NCBI GenBank assembly: GCA_937951625.1
Contig: CALFBP010000021.1
Span: forward strand, 1-32,720
Direction: 5' to 3'
DNA length: 32,720 nt
Source: an uncultured Thermoguttaceae bacterium
Lineage (GTDB): Bacteria > Planctomycetota > Planctomycetia > Pirellulales > Thermoguttaceae
This document shows, one piece after another, positions 10,472-18,374 of the stretch; within the stretch, counting starts at the first letter, position 1, and the number at the start of each line of letters is the position of its first letter. Below the pieces are notes generated by a model. It had not been told where the DNA came from and did not search any database. It was given only the letters and a program-made list of their open reading frames with translations. Both the position numbers and the translations under genes were made by a program.

Positions 10472-11099
10472 GGTCCATGTCCTCCGCAGGGGGGCTTACG
10501 TATCCCAGCGTCCGATGCTTCCGTCGGAATTATAGTTTCTTTCGGCATTCCCAACAACTGAGAATATGCCACAGTTTGTTTTCACTTGAAAATTCAGAGA
10601 AACTCGGTAGCGGACTCCCGCTCATTCCAAAAAACCTCAACCGCCTTTCACCCGATCGCGCCGACACCCCGGAACCATTGTGCTCAACCGAACTTATGCC
10701 ACATCGTCCGAGGTCGCTGTGCCTTCCATTCCCAGAAACGGACGGCTTCGATGCGCCCCAGGACCAATCACGCCGAGTTATACACAGTTTGCAAGACTCG
10801 CATTCCACTGTGTCTGAACTGTGGCAAACACCGGGACCCGAGCGGCCCGGACAGCGAAAACGGCCACCTCCTTCGCCGAACAACCGCGAATCTCGGTTCA
10901 TAAAGCCCCAACAGAGCTTATTCGATCGCTTTGATCCCACCCTTCTAACACGTCCTGCAAACGAACGAAGCGGTATCACCTGGAACGGTCTATGTCATGG
11001 TGCCGATGAACGAAAAGGACAGGTCTTGCTCAGGGATACTCGCCTTGGGAGTGGTGCGAATATAGCTCTTACAACTACCTCTGAGCGAAAGGGCTCGTT
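10472..11099. other. Intergenic region
   Basis: About 630 bases between divergent genes. It is less GC-rich than its surroundings and contains repeated short GCCACA/TGTGGC words. Frames up to about 150 codons exist, but they have the composition of random sequence (many Arg, Pro, Ser and Cys) and no recognisable domain. No RNA gene was recognised. Confidence 0.4.
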
Positions 11100-11357
11100 A
11101 TGTGGCGGACGCTCTTCATGGCCTTTGGTTTTTTTGTGTTTCTCGTCGGTGCGCAATGCCTAGTTGTGGACAAATTTGTCCTGAAGGCGTCCCCCCCAAA
11201 AGTGCAGACAAATTGGGCAGGTCAGCCTCAAATCGTACCTGTCCCCCGGCGGGAAATTACTCCTACCGAATGGGCACCGTTCAGTCTTATGGCGGGTGGA
11301 GCAGTGATCTGGCTTTACGCCGTCTCCATTTCAAACCGCCTGAAAATGAAAAAGTGA
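11100..11357 (+). CDS. Small two-helix membrane protein
   Basis: An 85-residue protein with two hydrophobic segments, residues 3-23 (RTLFMAFGFFVFLVGAQCLV) and about 61-78 (FSLMAGGAVIWLYAVSI), separated by a polar stretch containing a PPKVQTNWAGQP segment. Both ends are likely on the same side of the membrane, with the short basic C-terminus (NRLKMKK) in the cytoplasm. I do not recognise a named family. An AAAGGG lies about eight bases before the ATG. It stands alone between a long intergenic region and an oxidoreductase relic, so context gives no function. Confidence 0.65.
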   Translation: MWRTLFMAFGFFVFLVGAQCLVVDKFVLKASPPKVQTNWAGQPQIVPVPRREITPTEWAPFSLMAGGAVIWLYAVSISNRLKMKK

Positions 11358-11514
11358 CGGGACCGGCTCCGCTCCGGAGGCCACGAAGAGGCCAGCCTTT
11401 TCAGAAAAAAGGTGGCATTGCCGAGTTGGCGGGCGGCAATGGGAATCCGAAATCCTTGCACGGCTTCGCCAAAATGGAATACCCTCTCCGCTGGCCGAGC
11501 TCAGCCGTGAAAAG

Positions 11515-11847
11515 TCAGTACGGTTTGTAAACGCCGGGAAGGGCAAAGGGGTAACGGCCGCCGGGCCCCGGCAGGTGGCGTGGTTTTGTGTCCCAGGCGA
11601 TGCGTTCGGGGCTTTCCTGCGGGCCCTTGGAGACCGCATCATCCCAGTGGACGACCTGGCCCGAGTAGGTCGCCATACGGCCGAGAACGGCGGTCATGCT
11701 GCTGATCGCCCCGAACCACCCCTCGTTGAGCCGCGTGCCGTTAAGGATTGCCTTAATCAGGTCCACGTGCTCCTGACTTATGGGACTGCGAAAACTGCCC
11801 ATGGACCCGTGCTTGCGGCCCCGAGGCCAGTATCGATGTCCTTGAAT
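11515..11847 (-). pseudogene. C-terminal relic of a Gfo/Idh/MocA-family oxidoreductase
   Basis: The minus frame encodes about 110 residues that match the C-terminal end of planctomycete-type Gfo/Idh/MocA dehydrogenases: HRYWPRGRKHGSMGSF, then LIKAILNGTRLNEGWFGAIS, MTAVLGRMATYSGQVVHWDDA, and the typical ending with WDTKP, LPGPGGRYPFALPGVYKPY. The reading frame is blocked by TAG at 11848-11850, and the N-terminal Rossmann domain plus most of the substrate domain, about 300 residues, is absent upstream. An ATG at 11802 could start a 95-residue fragment, but without the nucleotide-binding domain it cannot be an active enzyme. I read it as a decayed gene left by deletion. Confidence 0.75.
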
Positions 11848-12023
11848 CTACGCAGCACGCGCGGCCGACGCACATGGTGCAGAAAAAGAGGGTCGGGGCC
11901 AATCCTGTTCGGCACCATGATCGCTCGGGCCGCTCCGCTGGGGGCTTGCAGTTGCGGCAGCTTGTTTCCAGTGCGGGATATGCTTCGCAGTTTGGAATGG
12001 GGATTGAGCCTGCTTTCAGCTTC
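11848..12023. other. Intergenic region before the nik promoter
   Basis: Short stretch between the oxidoreductase relic and the nik promoter. It may include scrambled remains of the deleted oxidoreductase, but I could not recover a convincing frame in it. Confidence 0.35.
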
Positions 12024-12052
12024 TCGACAGCCTAGCCCCAAGGTATTACAAT
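12024..12052 (+). promoter_or_regulatory. Putative sigma-70 promoter of the nik operon
   Basis: TCGACA (12024-12029) and TACAAT (12047-12052), each one base away from the consensus, are separated by exactly 17 bases. The -10 lies inside the left arm and spacer of the NikR-type operator, so bound repressor would exclude RNA polymerase. Confidence 0.65.
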
Positions 12053-12069
12053 GGCCCATATTGTAACAC
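12043..12069. promoter_or_regulatory. Probable NikR operator
   Basis: The sequence is GTATTAC-N13-GTAACAC, a near-perfect inverted repeat; the inner bases extend it so that ten-base arms pair with one mismatch. It corresponds to the GTGTTAC-N13/14-GTAACAC operator form described for NikR of Desulfovibrio, differing by one base in the left arm. It lies 78 bases upstream of the nikK start and overlaps the promoter -10. NikR represses nickel uptake genes when Ni(II) is sufficient. No nikR gene is within the window. Confidence 0.75.
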
Positions 12070-12147
12070 TTGCCACGGAGACCGACGGAAGAAGGCGGTC
12101 CGACCGTACCTGCCGGCGCCCTCAACCTTGATTTCGGAAACTGCATC

Positions 12148-12924
12148 ATGAGCAGGATCTTTCCGATCACGTCGATCGTGCTGAGTCTTTTGATCATTGT
12201 CCCGCGCCCCGCCACAGGACATTTTTTGGTACTGCGCCCAACGAGCGACGTGATTAACGGAGGCGCACGGAGCGTCGGCTTTCAGATCGCGTTTACCCAC
12301 CCCATGGAAAACGGGCCGATCATGGAATTGGGCCCACCTGAGCGGTTCGGCGTCCGCGTAGCCGGAAAGGACCGCGATCTGAAGGATCGCCTTCGGCCCA
12401 AAAAGGTGCAGGGCAAGACAACCTACGAAGCACTCGTGGAACTGGAACGGCCGGGCGATCACGTCTTCTACTTCCAGCCGGCACCCTATTGGGAATCCGG
12501 TGAGCAAACGATGATCGTGCATTACACCAAGGTGGTCGTGAACTACGCGGGCGTGGAGAAGGGCTGGGACGCTTTGGTGGGTTTTCCCGTCGAGATTCAA
12601 CCCTTGGTGCGGCCCTATGGGCTTTGGACTGGCAACACCTTTCGTGGCGTCGTCCTCCACCGCGGTAAGCCGCTACCTTTTGCCACGATCGAAGTGGAGT
12701 ATCTCAACGAGGGCGGTCGGGTCAAAGCGCCCAACGACGCCTTCGTGACCCAAGTCATCAAGGCCGATGCCTCGGGAACTTTTTCTTACAGCATGCCGAA
12801 AGCAGGCTGGTGGGGCTTCGCCGCCTTGGTGCCCGGCGAAGAGAAAATGAAAAGCCCCTCCGGAGAAGTGGTGGACGTGGAGCTGGGCGGCGTTTTTTGG
12901 GTGCAAGTGGTCGACATGCAATAA
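12148..12924 (+). CDS. nikK: NikK: periplasmic DUF4198 component of nickel ECF transporter
   Basis: A 258-residue secreted protein of the DUF4198 type, the NikK component found beside nickel ECF transporters. Residues 1-24 form a signal peptide (basic start, hydrophobic IVLSLLIIV core, then PRPATG), and the probable mature protein starts at His25 (HFLVLRP). The rest is beta-rich, including LVELERPGDHVFYFQ and a C-terminal ADASGTFSYSMPKAGWWGFAAL segment typical of the family. It presumably captures Ni(II) outside the membrane and passes it to NikM. ATG 12148 is chosen because it places the signal peptide at the N-terminus; the frame extends 26 codons upstream without a plausible leader and would run into the operator. 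It is the first gene of the nikKMLQO operon. Confidence 0.85.
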   Translation: MSRIFPITSIVLSLLIIVPRPATGHFLVLRPTSDVINGGARSVGFQIAFTHPMENGPIMELGPPERFGVRVAGKDRDLKDRLRPKKVQGKTTYEALVELERPGDHVFYFQPAPYWESGEQTMIVHYTKVVVNYAGVEKGWDALVGFPVEIQPLVRPYGLWTGNTFRGVVLHRGKPLPFATIEVEYLNEGGRVKAPNDAFVTQVIKADASGTFSYSMPKAGWWGFAALVPGEEKMKSPSGEVVDVELGGVFWVQVVDMQ

Positions 12925-12963
12925 ATCCAGTGCGCCGACACGTCATGAATCGCGAGGCTTACC

Positions 12964-13614
12964 ATGCATATCCCTGAAGGCCCCTTGTCGGTCTCCACGA
13001 CGGGGATCAGCATCCTTGGCGCTGGGGCGGTCCTGGCAGCCGCTGGCGTGGCGTGGGGATTGCGCAAAATGGACTACGAGCGCGTGCCGCAAGTGGCCCT
13101 GCTCAGTTCCGCATTCTTCGCCGCCTCACTGATCCACGTGCCTTTGGGGGGCACCTCGGTTCATCTGGTGTTGTCGGGGCTGGTCGGCCTGATCCTGGGC
13201 TGGGCAGCCTTTCCCGCAATCTTTATCGCCATCGCGCTTCAGGCGGCGTTCTTCGGCTTCGGAGGCTTCACCACCTTGGGCCTCAATACCGTGCTCATGG
13301 CCTTACCCGCCGTGGCTTGCTACGGACTGTTTCATCCCCTGGTTCGCTGGGGACGCGAGGGTGTGGCTGCCATTGCCGGTTTTGCGTGCGGCGCCGTGGC
13401 GATTCTCCTCGGTGCTATCTTGTTAGCAGGCATTTTGATGGCTGCCGGCTATGAATTCCGGAGCCTTGCTGTCACTGTGTTGCTCGCCCACGTGCCCGTC
13501 GCCGTGGTCGAGGGCTTAGTGACCGCCAGCGCCGTGCTCTTTTTGCGAAAGGTTCGCCCGGAGCTCCTCGACGCCCCGTATTTGCCGCTGGAGGTACGGA
13601 CCTCCGATGCTTGA
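12964..13614 (+). CDS. nikM: NikM: substrate-binding membrane (S) component of nickel/cobalt ECF transporter
   Basis: The 216-residue polytopic membrane protein starts MHIPEG, the diagnostic N-terminus of CbiM/NikM, in which the Met1 amino group and His2 coordinate the metal in known family members. His46-type residues such as the LIHVPLGGTSVHLVLSG segment supply the second characteristic motif. About six hydrophobic segments follow. Cobalt and nickel versions are hard to separate by sequence; the NikR-type operator and the NikK/NikL partners argue for nickel. No CbiN/NikN domain is fused or adjacent, as expected for the NikKMLQO subtype. GAGG six bases before the ATG is a fair ribosome site. 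It lies 39 bases after nikK. Confidence 0.92.
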   Translation: MHIPEGPLSVSTTGISILGAGAVLAAAGVAWGLRKMDYERVPQVALLSSAFFAASLIHVPLGGTSVHLVLSGLVGLILGWAAFPAIFIAIALQAAFFGFGGFTTLGLNTVLMALPAVACYGLFHPLVRWGREGVAAIAGFACGAVAILLGAILLAGILMAAGYEFRSLAVTVLLAHVPVAVVEGLVTASAVLFLRKVRPELLDAPYLPLEVRTSDA

Positions 13615-13662
13615 GACAGGGGACGGTTGAAGTGGATCCCAAGAAACAACGCTTCGTTGGGA

Positions 13663-14439
13663 ATGAACAACAACGTTGCTAAAACCCGAAGTTCGCTTTT
13701 GGGGTACGAATGGGGTTGGATCATCGCCACCGCGCTGGTCCTTAGCAGCCTGGCCGCCACGCCTGCCTGGGCACACAAGGCGAGCGTGTTCGCGGCGGTG
13801 CAAGGCAAAATGATCTCGGGCGAGGCGTATTTCCGCGATGGAACGCCGCTCCGCAACGCCAAGGTTACGGCCTTCGACCCCGACGGCCAACCGCTCGCCG
13901 AGGCGCAAACAGACGCCCAAGGCAAGTTCTCTCTCCCCATCGCCCGCCGATGCAATCACCGCCTGGTGGTCGACGCGGGCGACGGCCACGCCGCGGAATA
14001 CACCGTTCGGGTCGAGGAGATTCCCGCCGATCTGGATGGAGAGAAACCCGGGACAGTGGCCTCCGCCGCTCCGCCTGCCGATCCCGCTGGCCAGATCGAC
14101 GAGAAGCCGAGAGCAAGCCGTTCGGTTCCCTCCAGTGATACCCCCGCCGCTCGCTCAGGGCGCGATGCCTCGACCGTTTCACCAGCGAGCGACGCGGTAG
14201 CCGAACTGCGGGGGGAGATTGCGGCCCTGCAAACGCAACTGGTGCAGCTCCGCCGGGACCTCGCCGCGCGAGAGGACCGGGCGCGTTGGAGCGACGTGTT
14301 GGGAGGAATCGGCTACATTCTCGGTCTGATGGGACTGGCGTTTTACTTCCTTGGGGTGTTGTCGAGGAATCGGCGGAATGCACCACTCCTCGACCCGCCA
14401 CGGGCGCGACCAGTCACCCAAGCGGATGTCCCCCCTTGA
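13663..14439 (+). CDS. nikL: NikL: periplasmic, membrane-anchored nickel transporter component
   Basis: A 258-residue protein with a signal peptide ending ATPAWA at residue 37, so the mature chain would start at His38 (HKASVF). A carboxypeptidase-regulatory-like beta domain (about 41-110, FRDGTPLRNAKVTAFDPDG) follows, then a Pro/Ala/Ser-rich linker, a coiled coil (about 170-205, ELRGEIAALQTQLVQLRRDL) and a single transmembrane helix (about 212-232, IGYILGLMGLAFYFLG) with a short Arg-rich tail. This is the layout of NikL in nikKMLQO loci, where K and L take the place of NikN. ATG 13663 is chosen for a normal leader length; TTG at 13627, twelve codons upstream and preceded by AGGGGA, is an alternative. 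Confidence 0.78.
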   Translation: MNNNVAKTRSSLLGYEWGWIIATALVLSSLAATPAWAHKASVFAAVQGKMISGEAYFRDGTPLRNAKVTAFDPDGQPLAEAQTDAQGKFSLPIARRCNHRLVVDAGDGHAAEYTVRVEEIPADLDGEKPGTVASAAPPADPAGQIDEKPRASRSVPSSDTPAARSGRDASTVSPASDAVAELRGEIAALQTQLVQLRRDLAAREDRARWSDVLGGIGYILGLMGLAFYFLGVLSRNRRNAPLLDPPRARPVTQADVPP

Positions 14440-14582
14440 TGCCGTGGCTCGGCTGCGGTCCATTCATGGCGCCGCTGGGACCAGTGTGGGCAAGGTCCAC
14501 GCCCCCACGTTGGTACAAAAGACGCCCCTGTCCGATGACGTGGATCGCAACCGAGCCCCCCCGGAGGGTTAAACTACTCTTC

Positions 14583-15329
14583 ATGTTTCAGACTGCCAAC
14601 TTTGTCCCGTCGGTGCTTGACCGATTCGATCCCCGCGCGCGGATCGTGGCAGCAGCGGCCTTCTGTTTAATCGACACGCTCGTTAGGCAATGGGAATCGC
14701 TCGTTCTGGCGTTCGCCGGGGCCGTGGTGGCGGCCACCCTGGCCGGTTTCTGGCCGCGGACAATCCTGGCCCGATTGGCGCCGCTCAACCTCTTCATGGT
14801 GTTGGTCTTGGTCATCGTGCCGTTTACCACGCCAGGCACGCCGATTGCATTTTTTGGCTCATGGGCATACTCCTGGGAAGGGCTGCTCGTGGCGGTGGAG
14901 GTGGTTCTTAAAGGCAACACCATGGTGTTGGCGGTTATGGCCTTGGTGGCCAGTATGGACCCCATCGTGCTCGGCCACGCCCTTCATCATTTGGGGGTGC
15001 CAGAAAAACTGGTCCACCTTATGCTCTTTGCGGTTCGCTACTTCGAGGTGCTCCGCCGGGAATACCTGCGACTGGCGGCGGCAATCAAGGCGCGTGGATT
15101 TCGTCCCCGGATGAACCGCCACACGTATCGTACCTATGGCTATCTGGTAGGCATGTTGTTGGTGCGGGGACTGGACCGGTCGGAGCGGATCGTGGCCGCC
15201 ATGAAATGCCGCGGCTTCCGCGGCCGGTTCTTCCTACTCGACCACTTCGCGCTGACGCGCCGCGACCTGGGATTCGCGGCGGTGACGACGTTGTTCTTCG
15301 CCTTCGTGGCCTGGGTGGAATGGATGTGA
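14583..15329 (+). CDS. nikQ: NikQ: transmembrane coupling (T) component of ECF transporter
   Basis: The 248-residue EcfT/CbiQ-family protein links the metal-binding membrane subunit to the ATPase. It has several hydrophobic segments and the two cytoplasmic coupling signatures of the family: A170-R171-G172 (AIKARGFRPR) and C209-R210-G211 (AMKCRGFRGR), the latter with Cys in place of the usual Ala. ATG 14583 gives the usual CbiQ N-terminus (VLDRFDPRARI); the frame extends upstream through sequence overlapping nikL and is not considered coding. GGAGG lies fifteen bases upstream, further than usual. A 143-base gap separates it from nikL, and its end overlaps nikO by ten bases. Confidence 0.92.
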   Translation: MFQTANFVPSVLDRFDPRARIVAAAAFCLIDTLVRQWESLVLAFAGAVVAATLAGFWPRTILARLAPLNLFMVLVLVIVPFTTPGTPIAFFGSWAYSWEGLLVAVEVVLKGNTMVLAVMALVASMDPIVLGHALHHLGVPEKLVHLMLFAVRYFEVLRREYLRLAAAIKARGFRPRMNRHTYRTYGYLVGMLLVRGLDRSERIVAAMKCRGFRGRFFLLDHFALTRRDLGFAAVTTLFFAFVAWVEWM

Positions 15330-16012
15330 ACGAACCGCTCATTTCGCTTTCCAACGTCAGCTTCGCCTACGAGCCGAGTCGACCTGTTCTCACCGGCCTG
15401 GACCTGGAGCTTGCGCCGCGAGAGCGCGTGGGTCTGGTAGGTCCGAACGGGAGCGGAAAGAGCACGATCCTGGCCCTCATTGTGGGACTGCTGCGGCCCT
15501 CGGCCGGGCAAATCCGAATTTTCGGCAAGCTGCGAACCAGAGAAACCGATTTTCATGAGGTCCGCGGTCGGGTCGGCTTATTGTTTCAGGATTCCGACGA
15601 CCAGTTGTTCTGCCCGACCGTCGCCGAGGACGTGGCCTTTGGGCCATTGAACCTGGGGGTACCGCGAACAGAGGTCCGCCGCATCGTGGCGGAAACACTA
15701 CAAGTGCTCGGGCTGGCGGGATACGAAGACCGGATAACCTACAGGCTGTCCGGCGGTGAAAAACGTCTGGTGGCCTTGGCCACGGTGCTCGCCATGCAGC
15801 CGGAGGTCTTGCTCCTCGACGAACCGATCGCTGGACTGGACGAAGAGGCCACTGCGCGCGTCATGGAAGTGCTCGCACGGTTGCCGCTTGCCATGTTATT
15901 GATCTCCCACCAACGCGAAATCCTCGATCGCTTGACCAATCGAACCTTACGGCTGACGAACGGCCGCCTCCGGCCCGAACTCTCTTGCCGAGGGGAAAGC
16001 CCTCCTGCATAA
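15320..16012 (+). CDS. nikO: NikO: ATPase component of nickel/cobalt ECF transporter
   Basis: A 230-residue ABC ATPase of the CbiO/NikO group that powers metal uptake. Walker A is GPNGSGKST (41-49), the Q-loop Gln is Q90 in the family-typical LLFQDSDDQLF segment, the signature is LSGGEK (143-148), Walker B is LLLDEP (164-169) followed by AGLD, and the switch histidine is H197 (LISHQ). It is slightly shorter than stand-alone CbiO proteins of 270-280 residues, with a short C-terminus. The ATG lies inside the last codons of nikQ (ten-base overlap), so translation is probably coupled. It is the last gene of the operon. Confidence 0.94.
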   Translation: MDVNEPLISLSNVSFAYEPSRPVLTGLDLELAPRERVGLVGPNGSGKSTILALIVGLLRPSAGQIRIFGKLRTRETDFHEVRGRVGLLFQDSDDQLFCPTVAEDVAFGPLNLGVPRTEVRRIVAETLQVLGLAGYEDRITYRLSGGEKRLVALATVLAMQPEVLLLDEPIAGLDEEATARVMEVLARLPLAMLLISHQREILDRLTNRTLRLTNGRLRPELSCRGESPPA

Positions 16013-16106
16013 TGATTAGCAGGGGTGCCTTTTGGGGGCTGTTATGCGAATGTCCGAGTCGGCCGTTTCAAGCCGTCGTCCATGTGCCCCGCGACTGCGG
16101 ACTTAG

Positions 16107-18374
16107 ATGCCGGAAGCTTTCGATCCGTATCTTCAGTGGTTGGGGATCCGCGATCCACAACGCCCGCCGAACCATTACCGGTTGCTCGGCGTGGAGTTGT
16201 TCGAGAGCGATCCGGAGGTGATCAGCAATGCCGCCGATCGGCAAATGGCCCACGTCCGCACCTTTCAGACGGGCCGCCATTCGGCCGAGTCTCAGAAGCT
16301 GCTGAATGAACTCGCCGCGGCCAAGGTCTGCCTGCTCCATCCCGAAAAAAAGGCCGCCTACGACTCTCAGTTGCGAGCGGAACTCGCCGCTGCGGCCGCC
16401 GTATCTCCTGGGTCGATCGAAGCCAAAGGCACCGCCAGTCCGCCGCCTAAACTCTTTCGGTCAAGCCCCGCCGCGAGCCCTTTGGTTTGGCTGGTCGCTT
16501 CTGGTTTTTTGGCTGCCGCGGTGCTCTTGGCCCTCGTGCTGACGCGGGGTGGCGGTCGCGGGAGCCCCTCTGACACCGTCGGCGAAGTGGCTCAAAGCTC
16601 AGTTGGCGCGGAACCCCGGAGCGATGAAATAGTCAAACCATTAAATCCCATGCCACAGGCGGCATCGGCCGAGGCCAAGGGCGATTCTTCTCCAGCGTTC
16701 TTTTCGAGCAAGACTCCGGACGGCGATCCGTCGCTGAAATCGCAGGGACAGGCCCCTACCAGAGGGAAATCACCCAAAGAGGAAGCAGCGAAAAAGTTCA
16801 GGCCTCCTCCGCCGTCGATCGCTCCCCAGACCGGCCAGGCCCAACTGGCTCCGCCAACCCCCGAAAAGACTCCAGAGAAGCCGCATGATGATCAGATTCC
16901 ACCCTTAACGCAGTCCCTCGCCGCGATGCGGCAGGCCATGCAGCAGCGAGATTTGGCGGCGGCCAGGCAGCATTTTTCCTCCGCCGAGAAGGTTGGCCTG
17001 TTGCAAAACCAGGATCAGGTTCTTCGCTGGAGCGACGTGTTCAAGCCGTGGGAAGAGTTTTGGGAAGCGGTCCACCTGGGCATCCGGGAATGCCGACAAG
17101 GCGAGGTCCTCCGCGGCTCGGGCGGGATGGTCGAGGTGGTCGCAAAAACCGATGAAACGATCACGATACGGGGAATCCAGGAAAAGGGTGTTTCGAGCAC
17201 TTACTCCCTGCGGACCCTCCCTGTCTGGATGGCTGTGACGCTCGCCGAGAAGAAGTTGCCGGAACAGACCGCCGATTTGGCCAAAGCGGCGTTTTTCCTC
17301 GTCGATCCCGAGGGAGATCCGCAGCAAGCGGCGGTCCTTTGCGAGCAATCCGAGCGGCAAGGCACGCCGCCTGGGCCGGGCCTGATGGCTGCGGTGCAGG
17401 AGGCCTTGGCCGCGGCTCCGCCCGCCAAACCCCCGGCCACCGCGGCCGGGAAGCCCCGCCTGCCCGTCCCCGACAAGCAGACCCAGGAAGACGAGAGAAC
17501 CAAACTCCGCGAGACGTTGCGTGCCCGACTTGCCCAGGCCAGGACCCCCGCCGATAAGGGCGTTCTAGCCGGCGAGTTGCTCGAGGAAGCCAAAGAGGTC
17601 CAGAATCAGCCGGCGGCTTGCTTTGCGCGGCTGGCCTTGGCCCGCGACCTGTCGCTGGAGGCGGGCGAGCCACGGCGCTTCCGCGAGGTGACGGAGGAAA
17701 TGGCCCGGCGGTATGACTTGGACCTGGTCGCAGAACAGCGGCGGGCAGTGATCGAGGCAGCAGACGAGAGGTTCCCTGCCGCCGTCCGCTCGGCCTTGGC
17801 CCATCTGGCCATCGAGCTGGCCCTGGAAGCGGTGCAGTCCGACTCTTTCGAGGACGCCGAACGATTGGCGAAAGCCGCTCGACAATACGCCAACATGCCG
17901 TTGGGCATCAAGGGTCGGGACCCGAACGCCATCCGCCAGGCCAACGAATTACTCGAGAGAATGGCCTGGTACGCGCAACAGCGGGAAATGGCCCTGGAAG
18001 CCGAAAAAAAACTCGCGCAAGACCCTGCCGACGCCAAGGCTGCCCACACTCTCGGCATGCATCTGGCCCTGATCAAGGAGCAATGGGAACGCGGCCTCCC
18101 CTTGCTGGTGAAGAGCGACGATGCGACGATCCGAGACCTGGCCAAAGCAGAACAAGCGACCCAGCGATCGGTGACCGCTGCGGAGATGGTGAAGTTGGCC
18201 GATCAATGGTCGGCGGCCGCTGCCGCGCTCGATGCCCCTTACCAACGCGCCGCTCGCCGTCGCGCGGTGTACTGGTATGAAATGGCGTTGCCGTTCCTGA
18301 AAGATAAATTGCGGGCCCGGGTGCTGAGCGATATGGGCATGTTACGGCAGGGCGAAACCCCGCGGCGAAACTAG
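16107..18374 (+). CDS. Planctomycete-type membrane protein with degenerate J-like domain
   Basis: The 755-residue protein opens with FDPYLQWLGI and PPNHYRLLGVELFESDPEVI, then ADRQMAHVRTFQTGRHSAES and LHPEKKAAYDSQLR, a J-like three-helix domain (about 1-92). The HPD tripeptide that activates Hsp70 is missing; HSA stands in its place. A single transmembrane helix follows at about 126-145, then a low-complexity Pro/Ala/Lys region to about 265, a small beta-rich segment (about 320-375, VVAKTDETITIRGI) and a long alpha-helical, TPR-like C-terminal region rich in Ala, Glu and Arg. This is known to me as a planctomycete-restricted type of uncertain role, perhaps a membrane-bound scaffold. The ATG is preceded by no strong ribosome site. 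It lies 94 bases after nikO but is unlikely to belong to the transporter. Confidence 0.88.
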   Translation: MPEAFDPYLQWLGIRDPQRPPNHYRLLGVELFESDPEVISNAADRQMAHVRTFQTGRHSAESQKLLNELAAAKVCLLHPEKKAAYDSQLRAELAAAAAVSPGSIEAKGTASPPPKLFRSSPAASPLVWLVASGFLAAAVLLALVLTRGGGRGSPSDTVGEVAQSSVGAEPRSDEIVKPLNPMPQAASAEAKGDSSPAFFSSKTPDGDPSLKSQGQAPTRGKSPKEEAAKKFRPPPPSIAPQTGQAQLAPPTPEKTPEKPHDDQIPPLTQSLAAMRQAMQQRDLAAARQHFSSAEKVGLLQNQDQVLRWSDVFKPWEEFWEAVHLGIRECRQGEVLRGSGGMVEVVAKTDETITIRGIQEKGVSSTYSLRTLPVWMAVTLAEKKLPEQTADLAKAAFFLVDPEGDPQQAAVLCEQSERQGTPPGPGLMAAVQEALAAAPPAKPPATAAGKPRLPVPDKQTQEDERTKLRETLRARLAQARTPADKGVLAGELLEEAKEVQNQPAACFARLALARDLSLEAGEPRRFREVTEEMARRYDLDLVAEQRRAVIEAADERFPAAVRSALAHLAIELALEAVQSDSFEDAERLAKAARQYANMPLGIKGRDPNAIRQANELLERMAWYAQQREMALEAEKKLAQDPADAKAAHTLGMHLALIKEQWERGLPLLVKSDDATIRDLAKAEQATQRSVTAAEMVKLADQWSAAAAALDAPYQRAARRRAVYWYEMALPFLKDKLRARVLSDMGMLRQGETPRRN

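Follow-up and report, generated by a model that had tools for sequence, protein, structure and literature searches.

A predicted NikR operator on the promoter of a nikKMLQO nickel importer operon in a Pirellulales-type planctomycete

The stretch of planctomycete DNA analysed here, 32,720 nucleotides in length (the window), carries a five-gene ECF-type metal transporter operon preceded by two facing heptamers that overlap a putative promoter. A sequence-only reading of the window had proposed that the heptamers form a NikR operator and that the transporter imports nickel. The locus thus raises the questions of which protein would read the site and which metal the operon would serve. As judged from sequence comparisons, the site is very probably a NikR operator by which the nikKMLQO nickel importer of this Pirellulales-type planctomycete is repressed.

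Direct reading of the sequence places GTATTACAATGGCCCATATTGTAACAC, which has the form GTATTAC-N13-GTAACAC, at positions 12043-12069 of the forward strand, with the left half-site at 12043-12049 and the right half-site at 12063-12069. The inverted arms reach 10 bases with a single mismatch (GTATTACAAT / ATTGTAACAC), and the sequence and extended symmetry are exactly as first described. The cores of the two halves, TATTA and TAACA, both conform to TRWYA, and their centres lie 20 bp apart, inside the NikR range of 20 (to 21) bp. The site is annotated as a predicted NikR operator composed of two GTRWYAC boxes, 20 bp apart from centre to centre. The -35 hexamer TCGACA (12024-12029, forward strand) was assigned by direct reading and a promoter scan, and is found at the same distance in relatives. 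The -10 hexamer TACAAT (12047-12052, forward strand), read directly, is formed by the final bases of the left box and AAT. The two hexamers are spaced by 17 bp, and the promoter is the top one of 3 sigma-70-like matches in the 11800-16200 region (shuffle mean, 0.8). The overlap of the site with TACAAT of a 17-bp-spaced promoter, already claimed in the sequence-only reading, thus holds, and the operator covers the predicted -10 of nikKMLQO. A further 78 bases separate the end of the operator from the nikK ATG at 12148, again as first reported.

The five genes, all on the forward strand, were each matched to a family, and the operon is complete. The product of nikK (12148-12924; PF10670, E 3e-55) is a DUF4198 protein whose start looks, by eye, like a signal peptide. 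It is followed by nikM (12964-13614; PF01891, E 2e-50; above the NF004905 cut-off), which encodes the substrate-specific membrane subunit with the N-terminus MHIPEG, and by nikL (13663-14439; start codon picked by eye), which scores 163 bits against the NF058648 NikL family model (cut-off 100). The T component is encoded by nikQ (14583-15329; PF02361, E 2e-27; above the TIGR02454 cut-off), and the ATPase by nikO (15326-16012; PF00005, E 1e-29), for which ECF ATPase models score best, albeit below their cut-offs. The composition, an M, Q and O core with K and L and without N, is that of a NikKMLQO nickel ECF transporter. The gene located after nikO (16107-18374, forward strand) encodes a 755-aa protein that matches neither Pfam nor NCBIfam models.

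NCBIfam labels the M and Q subunits as CbiM and CbiQ, and the operon might accordingly import cobalt, with the palindrome serving cobalt or B12 control. We consider this highly improbable. PMC2667541 treats NikN and NikK/NikL as components specific for nickel and CbiN as specific for cobalt, and no cobalamin riboswitch is listed by Rfam in the 11000-17000 region, where the single match at E<=1 is unrelated and below its gathering score. Moreover, of the same-family genomes, 31 have a NikM match, and NikR occurs in 29 of these and in 33 of the 60 others; in six genomes (G003, G006, G011, G012, G038 and G039), nikR and nikM are no more than 3 kb apart. Both observations strengthen the earlier preference for nickel over cobalt, and the prediction of nikKMLQO as a nickel importer is supported by its K/L content and by its link to NikR. 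Since NikR is found in those 33 genomes, it must serve other genes there.

The genome has a demand for nickel, as it encodes three [NiFe]-hydrogenase large subunits, on contigs C11, C59 and C101. The best models are VhuA for the C11 subunit and sulfhydrogenase for that of C101, both below the cut-offs of those models; the C59 sequence resembles, by eye, the C11 one. The genes adjoining the C11 and C59 hydrogenases are presumably HdrA-like. A single [FeFe] hydrogenase is encoded on C78, and the genome search returned no match for urease.

A nikR gene, which the sequence-only reading had suggested looking for, is present in the same genome. A profile search revealed a NikR_C domain (PF08753, E 8e-28) at C40:50242-50469, on a contig other than that of the nik operon. 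The protein is 136 aa long, has the N-terminus MSKITRFSVSVEDDLLEKFDRF, and aligns over nearly its full length with the structures 2bj1 (E 6e-34), 2ca9 from H. pylori and 1q5v from E. coli, the last match spanning residues 6-129. Its DNA-reading ribbon is RFSVS, and its metal stretch reads QHDH...TLHVHLEHDLC, in which the HxH...C and QH residues are conserved. Residues within QHDH and HVHLEHDLC are what we take to be the His/His/Cys nickel ligands. In the alignments, the protein hence combines a ribbon-helix-helix ribbon with a C-terminal domain carrying the ligand residues. Of 147 related genomes, 39 have a NikM match and 63 a NikR match; 31 and 62 of these, respectively, belong to the same family. 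Autoregulation of nikR was considered and rejected, as the starts of nikR at 30 loci and at its own locus in this genome carry no box pair at one mismatch or fewer. A motif with 2 mismatches lies at C40:49338, 0.7 kb upstream of the genome's own nikR, and did not qualify as a two-box site in that scan.

Conservation of the site was analysed in 34 fetched nikM regions, 30 of which (L073-L102) belong to the same family. Two of these end inside nikK, leaving 28 loci with upstream DNA; the weak NikM relatives L103-L106 have no site near nikM. Pairs of boxes (GTRTTAC or GTAAYAC, either orientation) were counted if they had no more than one mismatch, and DNA within 400 bases was taken as upstream. 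At the N13 spacing, 20 pairs occur in 11,686 bases of upstream DNA and 0 in the other 229,359 bases of the 28 loci, and all other gaps from 5 to 25 together yielded one pair. The motif derives from the sequence-only reading and from the 2004 paper (PMC545781), and is independent of the loci examined. The site is present in 20 of the 28 loci, which are not all independent, since L097 and L099, as well as L081 and L083, are close relatives. Conservation of the palindrome in relatives, a check proposed at the outset, was thus obtained, at one spacing only.

Eight of the 28 loci lack the site at one mismatch. In L073 and L093, it is found upstream of nikK at two mismatches, and L087 is an additional fragment from a genome that carries the site in its other copy. 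In L090, L092 and L094, all from genus g32, nikK lies elsewhere, apart from MLQO, and this detached nikK carries the site in two of the three genomes (G067 and G031). L091 belongs to a genome in which NikR was not found, and L101 encodes a distant NikM.

These data bear on the view that the palindrome is accidental, or serves as an attenuator for the gene upstream, as might be suggested by its single copy in the window. GTRTTAC-N13-GTAAYAC has one exact match there, which is also the sole one in the 4.59-Mb genome. However, 0 of 100 dinucleotide shuffles of the window contain any match, the site is conserved across many genera at one spacing only, and it is absent from the terminator scan listing, so that this view is scarcely credible.

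Searches of the 147 genomes gave a similar picture. GTRWYACAAT-N10-GTRWYAC occurs at 17 places, 15 of which are before nik genes (backwards control, 1), a count that gauges specificity only, as the pattern was modelled on the nik sites. The exact GTRTTAC-N13-GTAAYAC occurs at 29 places, all in the same family and 8 before nik genes; controls gave 3 inside the family, and outside it 0 places were found versus 3 for the control. Outside planctomycetes, box pairs at N13 or N14 were detected in 7 of 43 fetched nikM loci, in one case far from the operon, and NikR was found in all six Desulfovibrionaceae probed. The NikR motif is looser or different outside planctomycetes. A NikM tree was built excluding matches shorter than about 150 aa or with E-values above 1e-20, and dropping L206, L207, L208, L212 and L213 (copies of genomes already in) and L253 (distant). 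The family rows form one clade with a Hydrogenedentota row (98/80), L101 standing apart, and this clade is near Kiritimatiellota and Thermodesulfobacteriota rows. The root of the tree is uncertain, and no claim of horizontal transfer from Desulfovibrio is made.

The organization of the operator was derived from the 21 nik promoters with a site, including that of the window, picked at one mismatch or fewer. TRWYA is found in both halves of all 21 sites. The orientation of the boxes varies: 8 sites are inverted, 8 direct, 4 everted and 1 reversed-direct. The window site is inverted, as the term palindrome used in the sequence-only reading implies, but the halves need not be, and a strict inverted-repeat model is ruled out. 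The mixed orientations indicate that the unit is a pair of near-palindromic 7-bp boxes two helical turns apart rather than one palindrome. On these sequence grounds, the operator rule calls for two GTRWYAC boxes with a centre distance of 20 bp, whatever their orientation. Such paired boxes would suit one tetramer with two ribbon-helix-helix dimers, each having its own two-fold axis.

In 16 of the 21 promoters, TACAAT overlaps the left box at its end, and in 11, TCGACA is found 17 bp upstream of the -10. The use of TCGACA, and not TTGACA, as the -35 of these 11 promoters (the window and loci among L074-L098) is kept across genera. When spacings of 10-25 were scanned in 324 kb of family DNA, TCGACA and TACAAT were found together at a spacing of 17 only. 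The 10 occurrences of TCGACA-N17-TACAAT equal the nik promoters carrying exactly that sequence in the same DNA (the window and nine relatives), and thus provide no support for TCGACA as a general -35 of the family.

We infer that NikR binds the nik site, that binding depends on nickel and that it represses the operon. When nickel is plentiful, the NikR tetramer would bind the metal, and its two ribbon-helix-helix dimers would hold one GTRWYAC box apiece, on the same face of the DNA and two helical turns apart. Bound NikR would then block RNA polymerase, since the left box overlaps the -10 hexamer; with the boxes placed on the promoter, repression by polymerase blocking is the natural reading. 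Without nickel, NikR would release the DNA and the importer would be made.

Alternatively, NikR could be a mere bystander and the boxes could be recognized by a different nickel or cobalt regulator, such as a Nur of the Fur family or a second ribbon-helix-helix protein. NikR was not found in 29 of the 91 family genomes, 10 of which still hold at least one two-box match. These 29 genomes contain 17 such matches (backwards control, 2), and in two of them, G001 and G027, sites are well placed before DUF1559 or secreted-protein genes. However, 6 of the 17 matches correspond to a GC-rich repeat of G021 and G074, and the G001 assembly is 82% complete. The 62 NikR-bearing family genomes contain 63 two-box sites (control, 17), and sites are commoner in them (42/62 with any) than in those without NikR (10/29; Fisher p 0.0035, uncorrected for kinship). 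The 56 genomes outside the family contain 6 two-box sites versus 9 for the control. The link between NikR and the site is real but not clean, and the two-box pattern is loose enough for chance matches. Also against another regulator, nikR lies near nik operons in six genomes, a site is located between nikR and the adjoining DUF1559 gene in G036 and G081, and the core and pitch of the boxes are those of the experimentally mapped NikR consensus of H. pylori (PMC5385501). Taken together, a regulator other than NikR is improbable, and NikR remains the preferred reader of the boxes. The GC-rich repeat, present in three copies in each of G021 and G074 and close to GTAATACCCGCCCCCCGTAAGTATTAC, probably represents an unrelated repeat family matching the pattern by accident.

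Exact GTRWYAC-N13-GTRWYAC sites are found at three places in the genome (backwards control, 0): before nik, at C23:45145 and at C23:45473. Further copies had been anticipated before urease or hydrogenase genes, but none of the three lies before the genome's own hydrogenases, which, like urease, were rejected as targets. The two C23 sites are each 27 bp before the start codon of one gene of a divergent pair. One gene of the pair (L011:6258-7118, reverse strand; PF00590, E 3e-43) encodes a tetrapyrrole-methylase-fold protein which is apparently exported, having by eye a Sec signal-peptide-like start, and whose nearest solved relative is precorrin-4 methyltransferase. An exported S-adenosylmethionine enzyme would be odd, and the protein might bind nickel or nickel tetrapyrroles instead of acting as a methylase. 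Relatives of this gene in L126, L270, L272 and L280 are also under two-box sites. The other half of the pair is a DUF1559 pseudopilin gene (PF07596, E 3e-48), which is followed by a DUF4198 (NikK-family) gene (PF10670, E 2e-11). Members of the DUF1559/tetrapyrrole-methylase set are preceded by sites in eleven further genomes, among them G001, which has no NikR match.

Non-nik loci were found via their sites, and the 30 promoters displayed were chosen because a gene lies downstream. By eye, the boxes start right after a -10-like hexamer in many of them. Some sites precede genes for secreted proteins, some of which bear dockerin or PEP-CTERM marks. In L284 (G005:C296), the site at 195 lies roughly 250 bases upstream of a gene whose product has a class-II glutamine amidotransferase domain and is glutamate-synthase-like by eye. 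Two-box sites also precede [FeFe]-hydrogenase genes at L275:361-2202 (forward strand) and L282:1252-3075 (reverse strand), in genomes G039 and G053. Among the matches listed, the site is found at 0 of 30 fetched [FeFe]-hydrogenase loci. As only G039 and G053, which were found via their sites, have it, [FeFe] hydrogenase is a minority target and was rejected as a general one. We put forward only tentatively, as a somewhat doubtful extension, that NikR in this family might also run an as yet undescribed envelope module for surface nickel capture (DUF1559 pseudopilin, exported tetrapyrrole-methylase-fold protein and NikK-like DUF4198 protein), alongside a nickel-repressed [FeFe] hydrogenase in a few genomes.

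An early survey recorded a Nik or Cbi importer in none of three planctomycete genomes (PMC2667541, Table 2). Our literature search, in which a paper on Nur and superoxide dismutases surfaced, retrieved no description of a planctomycete NikR regulon. What is predicted here is an ordinary NikR operator in a host group for which it is unreported as far as that search reached. Control of the transporter is what a specialist would expect; the envelope-gene targets are unexpected. For planctomycetes, this yields a concrete predicted nickel regulon consisting of NikR, the operator rule GTRWYAC-N13-GTRWYAC at the -10 and a list of predicted targets. The DUF1559 and exported tetrapyrrole-methylase-fold envelope genes are flagged as probable nickel genes.

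The operator was compared with known systems. In E. coli, the NikR operator of nikABCDE is GTATGAT-N13/14-ATCATAC, as quoted in PMC545781. The protein family is the same, and the two half-sites are equally spaced, whereas the half-site sequence and the regulated transporter differ.

Sites in Desulfovibrio and Geobacter have the form GTGTTAC-N13/14-GTAACAC and precede nikMQO or nikKMLQO (Rodionov 2004, PMC545781), so the Desulfovibrio motif cited in the sequence-only reading is as given there. The half-sites of the window are identical to those of the D. desulfuricans hydAB site, listed as GTaTTAC-N13-GTAACAC in Table 4 of that paper, and the distance of the window site from the start codon, -105, compares with -104 for the D. 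desulfuricans nikKMLQO site in the same table. The [FeFe]-hydrogenase sites of two relatives echo the 2004 prediction for D. desulfuricans hydAB (PMC545781). Reversed halves had already been noted in the same source, for Desulfotalea psychrophila and for one gene of D. vulgaris. In contrast to the N13/14 spacing of Desulfovibrio and Geobacter (PMC545781), the gap is 13 at 20 same-family nik sites; only 8 of 21 sites here are inverted repeats, and the host is a planctomycete. NikR of this genome is 42-47% identical to six Desulfovibrionaceae proteins and differs from them at one ribbon position (S for G), their ribbon being RFGVS in five and RLGVS in the sixth.

The consensus mapped for H. pylori NikR consists of TRTTA and TAWTA, 15 nt apart with centres 20 nt apart, in a TRWYA dyad (PMC5385501). 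TRWYA-N15-TRWYA is the core of GTRWYAC-N13-GTRWYAC, at the same 20-bp pitch, and the H. pylori NikR ribbon is RFSVS, as in this genome. Here, by comparison, the core is flanked by a kept G before and usually a C after, and the predicted targets comprise an ECF importer together with envelope proteins of planctomycetes. The designation of the site as deltaproteobacterial-type is thus only partly apt: the half-sites are shared with D. desulfuricans hydAB, and the core and the pitch equal those of the H. pylori consensus. The operator rule joins the delta- and epsilonproteobacterial NikR motifs via one core and one pitch.
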